Under the pieces are notes generated by a model. That model had not been told where the DNA came from. It made no database searches and was given only the letters and a program-made list of their open reading frames with translations. Made by a program: the position numbers and the translations under genes. Shown piece after piece: positions 11,072-18,063 of a DNA stretch of 22,829 nucleotides. Each line of letters starts with the position of its first letter. The stretch's first letter is position 1. This stretch comes from a virus. The stretch lies in the IMG/VR virus record IMGVR_UViG_3300017746_000179, positions 1 to 22,829 of that record; one strand, written 5' to 3'.

Positions 11072-11731
11072 TTAATTTATTATACCGTCAATAACGCCTA
11101 ATTTCTGAGCGTCTTTAGCTGATAAGTAAAGGTCAGTCTTTGACTGCTCTGACCAGAACTTCTTATCTTTGTTTGTCTTATCACCTAGTATAGAGTTAGC
11201 CATCGATTCTAGATGTGAATTATATTTATGCGCTGCTTTTAAATCTGAAGATTTACCTGCTTGCATGGATGAACCTTCGTGAATCATAATAGTGGATCTC
11301 TTACTGGCTAAACGTTTACCTGTACCACATGCTAGAATCATTGCAGCTGCACTCATAGCTTTCCCTCTACAAATAGTGTTTACTTTAATATTACTGTTTA
11401 TTTCTAAACTCTCAATATAGTCTATAATACCAAACATCTCATATACATCACCACCTACTGAATCTATTACAACATTTATAGGAGAGTCATCCCCTTCAGC
11501 TCTATTTCGTATAATAGATCTACATCTTACCATAAAATCATATAAACCGAAATCTTCAATCTCACCTACTATATAAACGATGCTATCCTCTACATCTACA
11601 GCAAACTCTATTTCTTTATAAAGATGCTTCTTTTCAAGATCTTCTTCATAATATTCATCTTCAGTAGATGTATTTAACTTATCCTCTAGTTCTTCTTGCT
11701 CTTCGTAACTACCGTAAATGTTCTTTGACAT
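11072..11731 (-). CDS. clpP: ClpP-like serine protease
   Basis: A 219-aa protein with the full ClpP catalytic triad: S127 in GKAMSAAAM, H151 in IMIHEGSS and D200 in TDLYLSAKDA, which aligns with the D-x-x-L-S-A segment of cellular ClpP. The oxyanion segment VIDSVGGDVYEMFGIIDYI is also present. Residues 1-40 are an acidic extension absent from typical bacterial ClpP (EEQEELEDKLN), perhaps a prodomain. ClpP rings degrade proteins fed by a Clp ATPase, and none is encoded in this window, so a host ClpX or ClpA partner is likely. Clp-family proteases in some phages act in head maturation, and other marine T4-like phages carry ClpP-like enzymes too. The phage-encoded tmRNA makes the gene more interesting. 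Confidence 0.9.
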   Translation of the reverse strand: MSKNIYGSYEEQEELEDKLNTSTEDEYYEEDLEKKHLYKEIEFAVDVEDSIVYIVGEIEDFGLYDFMVRCRSIIRNRAEGDDSPINVVIDSVGGDVYEMFGIIDYIESLEINSNIKVNTICRGKAMSAAAMILACGTGKRLASKRSTIMIHEGSSMQAGKSSDLKAAHKYNSHLESMANSILGDKTNKDKKFWSEQSKTDLYLSAKDAQKLGVIDGIIN

Positions 11732-14661: not shown

Positions 14662-15075
14662 CTACTTAATAGTTATAGATTTTGGTTTAGCTTCATCAGC
14701 AAGTGGTGCATATAAGTGAAGTAAACCATTCTCTAAATTAGCTTCAAGTACTGATAAATCAAACCGTCTACTAATTCTCCATCCAAAGTTAAATGCTCGT
14801 TTAGCTATATTTCTTTGAATGTATTCTGCCCCGTTATGGCCAGCTTCTTTTTTATATTCTACTCGAAGTACATCTCCCTCAATAGTGAGTTCAATATCTT
14901 CTTTAGTTAAACCAACACAAGCAATATCAATATTAAGCCCATCACTGGCCTCATATATATCTACTGGGTGGTTAAGTTTAGTTGTGTCTGCAAACTGATA
15001 ATCTACGTCTGCTTTGAAAAAGTCCTTGAAAAGGACGTCGAATGGCGATGTGCCGAATGGTGTTAAATTTCCCAT
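14662..15075 (-). CDS. Hsp20/alpha-crystallin small heat-shock protein
   Basis: A 137-aa protein close to the typical small heat-shock length. The alpha-crystallin domain spans about residues 36-130: HPVDIYEASDGLNIDIACVG, LTKEDIELTIEGDVLRVEY, the RNIAKRAFNFGWRISRRFDL loop and the signature ANLENGLLHLYAPL (112-125). The tail ends in KSITIK, which carries the I-x-I-type oligomerisation motif. These proteins hold unfolding proteins in solution without ATP. T4-like cyanophages also carry one, where a role in particle assembly or folding has been proposed. The start has a strong AAGGAGA site and a leader of about 80 nt behind promoter-like copy C. Confidence 0.93.
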   Translation of the reverse strand: MGNLTPFGTSPFDVLFKDFFKADVDYQFADTTKLNHPVDIYEASDGLNIDIACVGLTKEDIELTIEGDVLRVEYKKEAGHNGAEYIQRNIAKRAFNFGWRISRRFDLSVLEANLENGLLHLYAPLADEAKPKSITIK

Positions 15076-16875: not shown

Positions 16876-17568
16876 TTAAGGTTTTGAAAATATATATGTA
16901 TATATCACCTTACCGTTAGCATTTTCTTTTTTGCGATAATCACGTAGTATACTACCATGTCTTATCATATGTGTTTTAGCTTTTGAAAGCCTTGATTCAT
17001 CTGTACAACTAATACACAATAAACCATTAATTGAAGTAGCGCGTATAAGATCATCATCTATGTTATCATAGACTTTTCCTAATATATCAGTAACCTCTTG
17101 CTCAGTTAGTGTGCTAGAAGTATTAGGAGTAGTAAACTCTAATGGCATTAAATTCTGCTTACTCATTACTCGTGTCATATAAAAATCAACATCAGTTGGG
17201 TCTAAACCTGAGAACCAGTTGCTAAATTGCCGAAGACTATTATTAAATAAATCAACTTTATCTTGTGCACTTATTAGATCCCAAACCATTGAGATTATTA
17301 TACGATTTGATTCATCTATCGCTTTTGCATACTGCCTCTGTTTATTAACTGGTAATTTATCAAACCAATTATCAAAACTGTCTTGATAATTTGATGTGTC
17401 AGAAGGTGTCCATTTACCACGCATATCTACATCATTAAAGAATTCTTTTCGGAAAGCAGGCGGCTCTGGTAGATAATCATCATCGATAGAGTTCCATAGC
17501 TCGAGATTATACACTGTGTTGTTGTATTTAATCTTTTTAGTTAAAATTGGTCTACTCATCATATCCAT
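16876..17568 (-). CDS. Hypothetical soluble protein after the tmRNA gene
   Basis: A 230-aa protein beginning MDMMSRPILTKKIKYNNTVY. It has an acidic and aromatic N-terminal half (WNSIDDDYLPEPPAFRKEFF), a helical middle (QRQYAKAIDESNRIIISMVW) and a basic C-terminal segment (RHGSILRDYRKKENANGK). Two cysteines occur in LLCISCTDES. There is no signal peptide or membrane segment. The AAGG site before the ATG sits about 17 nt after the tmRNA gene. Family not recognised. It may be cytosolic and is the first protein gene after tmRNA on the same strand. Confidence 0.65.
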   Translation of the reverse strand: MDMMSRPILTKKIKYNNTVYNLELWNSIDDDYLPEPPAFRKEFFNDVDMRGKWTPSDTSNYQDSFDNWFDKLPVNKQRQYAKAIDESNRIIISMVWDLISAQDKVDLFNNSLRQFSNWFSGLDPTDVDFYMTRVMSKQNLMPLEFTTPNTSSTLTEQEVTDILGKVYDNIDDDLIRATSINGLLCISCTDESRLSKAKTHMIRHGSILRDYRKKENANGKVIYTYIFSKP

Positions 17569-17598: not shown

Positions 17599-17735
17599 GG
17601 GCTTATACGACTTGCCCTGTTAATGCCGTTCGGGTCTGAGTGCTTTATTAAGCAGCCATTGCCATTTCAACATGTTCGCCTGTTATGCGTGACCTTCCTT
17701 AAATCCTTACCTCTCTGTCAAAGCCATTCACCCCC
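17599..17735 (-). ncRNA. ssrA: tmRNA coding piece (5' acceptor strand, tag frame)
   Basis: The mature coding piece should begin at G1 (17735) with GGGGGTG, followed by AATGGCTTTGACAG, the conserved D-side block of tmRNA. A purine-rich stretch (17718-17690) can form part of P2 with the acceptor piece. The tag frame opens at GGC 17680 and ends at TAATAA 17650-17645, and the stops lie in a TGCTT-AATA-AAGCA hairpin (P5-like). Past it are CCCG/GGGC-rich segments (17637-17599) that could form a pseudoknot and a 4-bp GGGC/GCCC hairpin. The exact 3' end is unknown. Confidence 0.88.
17645..17680 (-). other. tmRNA proteolysis-tag reading frame
   Basis: GGC GAA CAT GTT GAA ATG GCA ATG GCT GCT TAA TAA encodes GEHVEMAMAA. 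The GE start resembles Bacteroidota tags such as GENNYALAA (from memory), and the hydrophobic AMAA end is of the kind recognised by ClpX/ClpA. The double stop and its hairpin setting are typical. The central HVEM residues differ from host tags I know. Confidence 0.88.
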
Positions 17736-17753
17736 ATGATGTAAATCGTTTAG
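17736..17753 (-). other. tmRNA intervening segment
   Basis: The 18-nt spacer CTAAACGATTTACATCAT joins the acceptor 3' end to the coding-piece 5' end. By analogy with known permuted tmRNAs it should be removed by RNase P at 17735 and by 3' processing at 17754, with CCA added afterwards. Confidence 0.75.
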
Positions 17754-17811
17754 TGGAGGTGGAGGGTTTCGAACCCTCGTCCAAAAGAGTAGCTAATAAA
17801 AGTACTAGCGG
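17754..17811 (-). ncRNA. ssrA: tmRNA acceptor piece (T-arm and 3' acceptor strand)
   Basis: GGACGAGGGTTCGAAACCC is the strongly conserved 3' block of tmRNA. The T-stem is GAGGG/CCCTC with the 7-nt loop TTCGAAA, followed by acceptor strand CACCTCC and discriminator A (17754). Upstream, TACTCTTTT can pair with AGAGAGGTA of the coding piece (8 bp with one bulged G), a P2-like helix. The 5' end is not determined, and I place it after the stop codon of the upstream gene. Confidence 0.88.
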
Positions 17812-18063
17812 TCAATTTATCGTATGTTTAATCTTTACTAATTCTGCACACTTCTCATACTCCTCTGTCTCAGTAAAGTAGCTAATCAGTTGATCAATAG
17901 TTGCAACACGCCTTGGACGTCTTAACATCCAAGTACCTGCAGGTAAATCTTCACGAGTAATATCACTAATAAGGTACTCGTAGGTATTACTAATAGCTGC
18001 GTGAAGTAGCTCTTCGTCTTTACCGTCATCTTGTTTATCTATAAATTCTTCATACCCATCCAT
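17812..18063 (-). CDS. Small acidic protein with UVR-like C-terminal motif
   Basis: An 83-aa protein. I choose ATG 18063 (AGGTGG site, spacing 9) over TTG codons upstream at 18072 and 18069. The N-terminal half is acidic (DKQDDGKDEELLHAAISNT). The C-terminal 30 residues (IDQLISYFTETEEYEKCAEL) are closely shared with the small protein at 21410-21646, and the EEYEKCAEL pattern resembles UVR/McsA-type helical hairpins that mediate protein contacts. The stop lies immediately before the tmRNA acceptor piece, so tmRNA may be co-transcribed. Function unknown. Confidence 0.65.
   Translation of the reverse strand: MDGYEEFIDKQDDGKDEELLHAAISNTYEYLISDITREDLPAGTWMLRRPRRVATIDQLISYFTETEEYEKCAELVKIKHTIN

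Follow-up and report, generated by a model that had tools for sequence, protein, structure and literature searches.

Is the tmRNA gene on this viral DNA truly permuted, and from what kind of ancestor did its two-piece form arise? Three bacterial lineages have been described in which tmRNA is split by permutation. A first-pass annotation of the DNA analysed here, a 22,829-base viral fragment from IMG/VR (hereafter, the window), had described a permuted, two-piece gene of a T4-like phage at 17599-17811. It had left two options for the gene's origin, acquisition from a different lineage or independent permutation. Here we demonstrate the order of the parts of this gene, its covarying structure, its conserved tag frame, its synteny and its Bacteroidota signature.

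Identification of a permuted tmRNA gene

The window contains a complete permuted ssrA gene on the minus strand at about 17814-17599. According to ARAGORN, the window encodes a permuted tmRNA (tmRNA*). The Rfam model of permuted tmRNA, RF04321, matched with 65.7 bits (cut-off 47; E-value of 7.3e-11 for the whole window) and was the sole Rfam match at curated thresholds across the window. The two-piece models of Alphaproteobacteria (RF01849), Betaproteobacteria (RF01850) and Cyanobacteria (RF01851) yielded no match in the window at the gathering threshold. 

The acceptor piece lies upstream of the coding piece, with a short spacer between them. Every element named in the annotation (T-arm block, acceptor strand, spacer, stem, tag, stops and hairpin) was found on reading the minus strand. 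Specifically, GGACGAGGGTTCGAAACCCTC-CACCTCC-A ends at 17754 and is followed by 18 nt (17753-17736) and by GGGGGTG-AATGGCTTTGAC from 17735. The gene extends slightly beyond the annotated interval on its 5' side, where a strand of the long-range helix, TGACC, occupies 17814-17810. One neighbour is a small gene whose end lies at 17812, and the other is a 230-aa gene with its start at 17568. The features are as follows:

17810-17814, minus strand: 5' strand (TGACC) of P2b, a long-range helix between the acceptor and coding pieces; pairs with GGTCA at 17694-17690; CG/UA/AU covariation in 44 sequences, with two-sided changes in 17 cells
17810-17814 or just upstream, minus strand: 5' end of the acceptor piece
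17792-17809, minus strand: small hairpin of the acceptor piece, GCTA...TAGC; 94% of cells paired, one-sided changes only
17784-17789, minus strand: 3' strand of P2a, CTCTTT; partner AGAGAG at 17716-17711; two-sided changes in 4 of 6 pairs among relatives
17762-17778, minus strand: T-arm, GAGGG-TTCGAAA-CCCTC, preceded by GGAC; from the RF04321 alignment; a stem pair covaries (AU/UA/CG), 100% paired
17754-17761, minus strand: acceptor 3' strand, CACCTCC, and discriminator A; one stem pair varies as CG/UA/GC, G3-U70 invariant
17736-17753, minus strand: intervening segment of 18 nt, expected to be removed; from the sequence
17717-17735, minus strand: 5' end of the coding piece, comprising acceptor 5' strand GGGGGTG and D-loop AATGGCTTTGAC; from the RF04321 alignment
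17711-17716, minus strand: 5' strand of P2a, AGAGAG; covariation in the 44-sequence alignment
17690-17694, minus strand: 3' strand of P2b, GGTCA; covariation in the 44-sequence alignment
17645-17680, minus strand: tag frame GEHVEMAMAA and double stop TAATAA, with resume codon GGC at 17680; from the sequence and ARAGORN
17642-17653, minus strand: stop-codon hairpin, GCTT-AATA-AAGC; UA/CG covariation, 99% paired
17599-17629, minus strand: post-tag pseudoknot, ACGGC (17629-17625)/GTCGT (17611-17607) and GGGC (17617-17614)/GCCC (17602-17599)
16876-17568, minus strand: conserved, syntenic gene downstream of the tmRNA, 230 aa
15758-16324, minus strand: CHU_C type IX secretion signal domain protein, a host marker; PF13585, 40.8 bits

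IMG/VR scans located the same RNA in more than 45 further viral records. RF04321 was over threshold in six records fetched as relatives by gp6, and pattern scans raised the number of non-identical window-type members to 46, other types being excluded; the alignment comprised 44 sequences.

The RF04321 score is by itself no proof of permutation, as several genes that ARAGORN classes as standard exceed its cut-off. These standard-order genes, L203-L208, score above the gathering score of the model. The proof of permutation therefore lies in the order of the parts and in the absence of a downstream T-arm: in each of the 46 members, the roughly 500 nt that follow the tag are free of a T-arm plus acceptor strand, which excludes the normal gene order. 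That the locus is nevertheless a normal-order ssrA, or a chance resemblance to a tRNA, is so improbable as to be negligible. Such a reading could draw on the standard genes that pass the RF04321 cut-off and on the standard tmRNA model, RF00023, which reached 34.2 bits on an overlapping stretch. That score is, however, below the cut-off of 47; moreover, covariation in the acceptor stem follows the permuted arrangement. Overall, the RF04321 E-value, the ARAGORN call and the covariation in 44 relatives establish that the permuted tmRNA gene in the window is real, far beyond chance.

Conserved structure of the two pieces

The comparison with relatives bore out the annotated architecture: among the 44 aligned sequences and 46 members, the acceptor stem and the tag frame are conserved and the T-stem covaries. 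CACCTCC and GGGGGTG form a 7-bp stem, which is 100% paired in 44/44 sequences and includes G3-U70, the alanine identity pair. Strong covariation was also observed in the two helices that link the pieces, P2a and TGACC/GGTCA. In the 44-sequence MAFFT alignment, 93.6% of cells were paired under the window-derived structure. Covariation of this structure amounted to 0.244, versus 0.122 on shuffling (reached in 0 of 500 cases) and at most 0.079 with slid partners; as the structure was taken from one aligned sequence, it has an advantage in the slide control with regard to paired cells, and less of one with regard to two-sided changes.

One pseudoknot was identified after the tag. Its first helix is 98% paired in the 44 sequences, with the variants GU/GC and CG/UG/UA. 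The second helix, misaligned in the MAFFT alignment and judged by eye, reads GGGC/GCCC, GAAGC/GCTTC or GAGGT/ACCTC across relatives. The D-loop is TTTGAC or ATTGAC in 46/46 members. The window does not encode CCA, having CTA instead; the site is CTA or CAA in 43/46 members and CCA is unencoded in 44/46. Spacers of 16-23 nt separate the pieces in most relatives. In L051, L052, L082 and L086, an AT-rich spacer of 69 nt with inverted repeats lies between the two pieces.

The acceptor strand CCACCTCCAC is perfectly complementary to GGTGGAGGTGG at 17598-17588. This complementarity was considered as a switch and rejected, as it is not kept in L051 and L052. Since GGTGGAGGTGG precedes the next gene, it may well be a ribosome-binding site, and such a site would look like the complement of any CACCTCC.

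Tag reading frame

The annotated frame GEHVEMAMAA, ending in TAA TAA within a hairpin, is present at 17680-17645. Its codons are GGC GAA CAT GTT GAA ATG GCA ATG GCT GCT (17680-17651), followed by the stops at 17650-17645. The tag called by ARAGORN, EHVEMAMAA, begins one codon late. In 46/46 members, the frame begins with GGC and has the hydrophobic C-terminus -AMAA; 44 of the tags are 10 residues long. These ten-residue tags occur in 23 distinct DNA versions that encode 7 peptides, and the codons of Ala7, Ala9 and Ala10 differ solely at third positions. TAA, TAG and TGA are all used as tag stop codons among the members.

Two window-type members, L122 (8451-8696) and L150 (9943-10189), have a 37-residue tag, GTQIKSVKAG...AMAA, which ARAGORN mispredicts in both.

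Synteny and distribution

The product of the 230-aa downstream gene had no match in Pfam or PHROGs, and its AlphaFold model (pLDDT 74) had no PDB match with E <= 0.001. The idea that it is SmpB-like was rejected on the lack of a Pfam match and of a significant fold match. Used as a query independent of the tmRNA, in a search that ran on two narrow alignments, this protein retrieved 20 records. Eighteen had room upstream, L219 and L228 being cut off there, and the tmRNA was present in 18/18 (according to ARAGORN in 16 and to RF04321 in L213 and L214). No SmpB gene was found in 37 phage records; host SmpB would therefore be used. Near the tmRNA, the window also encodes a ClpP-family protease (11072-11731; a head maturation protease according to PHROGs) and an Hsp20 (14662-15075). 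A link between this ClpP and tagged proteins would be conjectural.

A similarity search with the window region against 50,697 phage records gave no match. With a relative as the query, the same search gave T-arm-sized matches only, which pointed to Chryseobacterium phage MA9V-3 and crAss-like phage cr50_1. A narrow scan by pattern (fixed motifs, spacer of 8-38 nt), run over 84,980 genomes of bacteria and archaea, detected the window type a single time; the gene lay on a phage-like contig of 6443 bases (L160, CAJQJC010000010.1) binned with a Candidatus Pelagibacter MAG. The gene at L160:486-731 scores the same as that of L122. The MAG has its own permuted tmRNA (L202; 96 bits), a different one located on another contig, so L160 is likely a case of misbinning or an infecting phage.

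Phage type and probable host

The gp6 and gp25 baseplate wedge genes mark the phage as a T4-like myophage, and the cargo points to Bacteroidota, both as the first-pass annotation had stated. The nearest named relatives of gp6 are in Microcystis phage Mel-JY01 (45% identity) and Flavobacterium phage immuto (41% identity). One gene of Mel-JY01 (PP395634.1) bears the annotation 'major paralogous domain', and the recorded Microcystis host of this phage may be doubtful.

The CHU_C domain belongs to a Bacteroidota secretion system. It was found in 10/48 window-type records, including one of 153 kb, versus 0/31 phage records with other permuted tmRNAs. An 80-kb relative (G025) encodes a Por_Secre_tail, a T9SS sorting tail. 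Because of the CHU_C counts, this sorting tail and the kinship of gp6 with that of immuto, the host is probably a marine Bacteroidota. Shine-Dalgarno-like sites precede 10/35 window genes versus a 10% background, which is above a pure Bacteroidota translation style. The protein encoded at 1480-2673 contains a CTDPDALNYDPAAEVDDDSC repeat, which we take to be of the sort in secreted marine Bacteroidota proteins. This type of repeat was found in 2/49 loci by a strict pattern and was left out of the host evidence.

Ancestry of the permuted gene

To place the gene, we compared it with one-piece tmRNAs that have Bacteroidota-type tags, a set drawn from IMG/VR prophage and phage contigs and not from named chromosomes. 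One such gene that was checked has in its vicinity an integrase in which PF13102 is combined with PF17293, as is known from Bacteroidota elements. In 14/14 of these one-piece tmRNAs we found TTGAC, a resume codon in the sequence GGCGA and a tag starting with G, as in the window type. The two groups further share GGGGnTGACTGGnTTTGACAG, the resume context AACTGGCGAA and a GE tag start. Permuted genes from whole alphaproteobacterial genomes have TCGAC, a resume context like GCAAATG or GCCAACG, an A tag start and another T-arm. The alpha-type features, namely the GGACCCGGGGGCGGTACCCGG T-arm, TCGAC and an AND- tag, do not occur in the window gene.

A tree was then computed on 81 columns from the tRNA-like domain and the resume region, with the parts set in one order and the cyanobacterial and betaproteobacterial permuted genes left out. 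In the four-group tree (window type, alpha, gamma and Bacteroidota), the window type grouped with the Bacteroidota one-piece genes with support of 100/100. When all phage sets were in the tree, support fell to 93/69 for a larger group. Forcing the permuted genes into a clade with the alphas was 20.3 log units worse in the four-group set and was not rejected (p-AU of 0.144); forcing all permuted genes together with all phage sets was 45.7 log units worse and borderline (p-AU of 0.049). A separate permutation is therefore favoured, not proven. Of the two origins first offered, the signature motifs and the tree favour independent permutation over acquisition from a different lineage. The best reading of these sequences is that a one-piece Bacteroidota tmRNA was permuted independently, apart from the alpha, beta and cyano cases. 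We lean, by a little, towards a permutation confined to phages, in which viruses would have remodelled the gene of a one-piece Bacteroidota ancestor and the hosts would have retained it in one piece.

Two further types of permuted tmRNA in viral contigs fall close to the Bacteroidota genes in the tree, namely type Y (L140, L149 and L156) and type Z (L117, L120, L134, L136, L137, L139, L144 and L151), with tags such as GNNTIQINNYVGLMSA and GTYNTPLALAA. Together with MA9V-3 and cr50_1, these types may represent additional permutation events in Bacteroidota phages. One viral contig (L166) carries a standard Bacteroidota-type tmRNA (tag GEYNYAIAA) and 24 tRNA genes.

Alternative explanations

It is unlikely that the phage lineage instead took up the gene in permuted form from bacteria whose ssrA is permuted, for example Alphaproteobacteria (SAR11), as proposed for the Melnitz gene, and that the motifs of the gene became Bacteroidota-like afterwards by convergence. 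Permuted tmRNAs of alphaproteobacterial type do occur in marine relatives of SAR11 phages (PMC9004378); a window-type contig was binned with a Pelagibacter MAG; and a single origin of the permuted form was not rejected on 81 columns (p-AU of 0.144). However, the window type departs from the alphas and agrees with the Bacteroidota one-piece genes in its T-arm, its D-loop, the context of the resume codon, the start of the tag and a CCA that is mostly unencoded, and the binned contig is phage-like, in a MAG whose own gene differs.

Slightly less credible still is a molecule other than a working rescue RNA, whether a copy that was captured or is in decay, or a decoy by which SmpB is titrated, like the tRNA-like-only molecule of DS6A. 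A phage tmRNA-like molecule that lacks a tag frame inhibits tmRNA (PMC4131195, PMC11915505), and hosts normally possess a tmRNA of their own. Yet conservation across a diverse family extends to the tag frame, the stop codon and its hairpin, the pseudoknot and G3-U70, and a decoy requires none of the tag features.

Proposed mechanism

We consider it highly probable that the window carries a phage gene for a two-piece tmRNA of Bacteroidota one-piece ancestry that would work in ribosome rescue; of this reading, we infer expression, the host and, from established tmRNA biology, processing, charging and rescue. The permutation would have arisen in the phage lineage or in an unsampled host. The RNA would be made as a single precursor transcript that begins with the acceptor piece, continues with the 18-nt spacer and ends with the coding piece. 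Cleavage before G17735 would fall to host RNase P, and the 3' end would be trimmed after A17754, with loss of the spacer; because CCA is not encoded, host enzymes would add it. The pieces would be held together by three helices, namely the acceptor stem, P2a and TGACC/GGTCA, and host AlaRS would recognise G3-U70 and charge the RNA with alanine. During infection, the charged RNA would join host SmpB and EF-Tu in entering ribosomes that have stalled, where it would add the tag (A)GEHVEMAMAA and so release them. The -AMAA end would direct the tagged fragments to ClpXP-type proteases. As to what the phage might gain, we speculate that ribosomes are kept free during mRNA destruction and that amino acids are recycled, an idea shared in part with PMC9004378.

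If true, the descent of a phage-only family from a one-piece Bacteroidota gene would provide an example of a topology change that is separable from the host's own gene, and would open the question of why a rescue RNA in two pieces is preferred by viruses. The family also provides a comparative set of more than 45 records with conserved synteny for a compact two-piece tmRNA, in which one post-tag pseudoknot was identified, as well as two members with 37-residue tags.

Comparison with known systems

Permuted tmRNA in phages is already known; what is new is the probable Bacteroidota-type ancestry of the window gene. In PMC9004378, ARAGORN is reported to have found the two-piece form in 53 of 133 phage tmRNA structures, mostly marine or aquatic. 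The Melnitz gene of that paper and the window gene are both permuted ssrA genes encoded by marine T4-like myophages, with a tRNA-like domain and a tag. The Melnitz gene, however, is reported there to be of alphaproteobacterial ancestry and linked to a glutamine riboswitch, whereas the window gene has Bacteroidota signature motifs and no Rfam riboswitch was found in the window.

The first-pass annotation knew of no permuted ssrA in Bacteroidota. That statement needs correction, since two Bacteroidota phages, MA9V-3 (L162, PV245944.1) and cr50_1 (L163, MT774375.1), carry permuted tmRNAs, annotated as 'tmRNA' only. They share the permuted order with the window type, but their tags (GNVIDINKYVAKLEVAA and GNNFVTDYTAIGA) are unrelated to the window tag, their phage groups differ as recorded, and they fall outside the window type in the tree.

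The permuted ssrA genes of bacteria (alpha, beta and cyano; RF04321, formerly RF01849-RF01851) have the same order of pieces, a spacer, a tRNA-like domain and a tag frame. Compared with sampled alpha genes, the beta and cyano ones not being directly compared, the window gene differs in its T-arm, its TTTGAC D-loop, its AACTGGCGAA resume context and its GE...AMAA tag. Relative to the bacterial permuted genes, it also has one identified post-tag pseudoknot. The one-piece Bacteroidota tmRNAs, with tags such as GENNYALAA and GEYNYAMAA, differ from the window gene in their normal order and their length of about 355-400 nt. They resemble it in GGGGnTGACTGGnTTTGACAG, in AACTGGCGAA and in the G-E start of the tag, and their CCA, where the site is readable, is often unencoded too.
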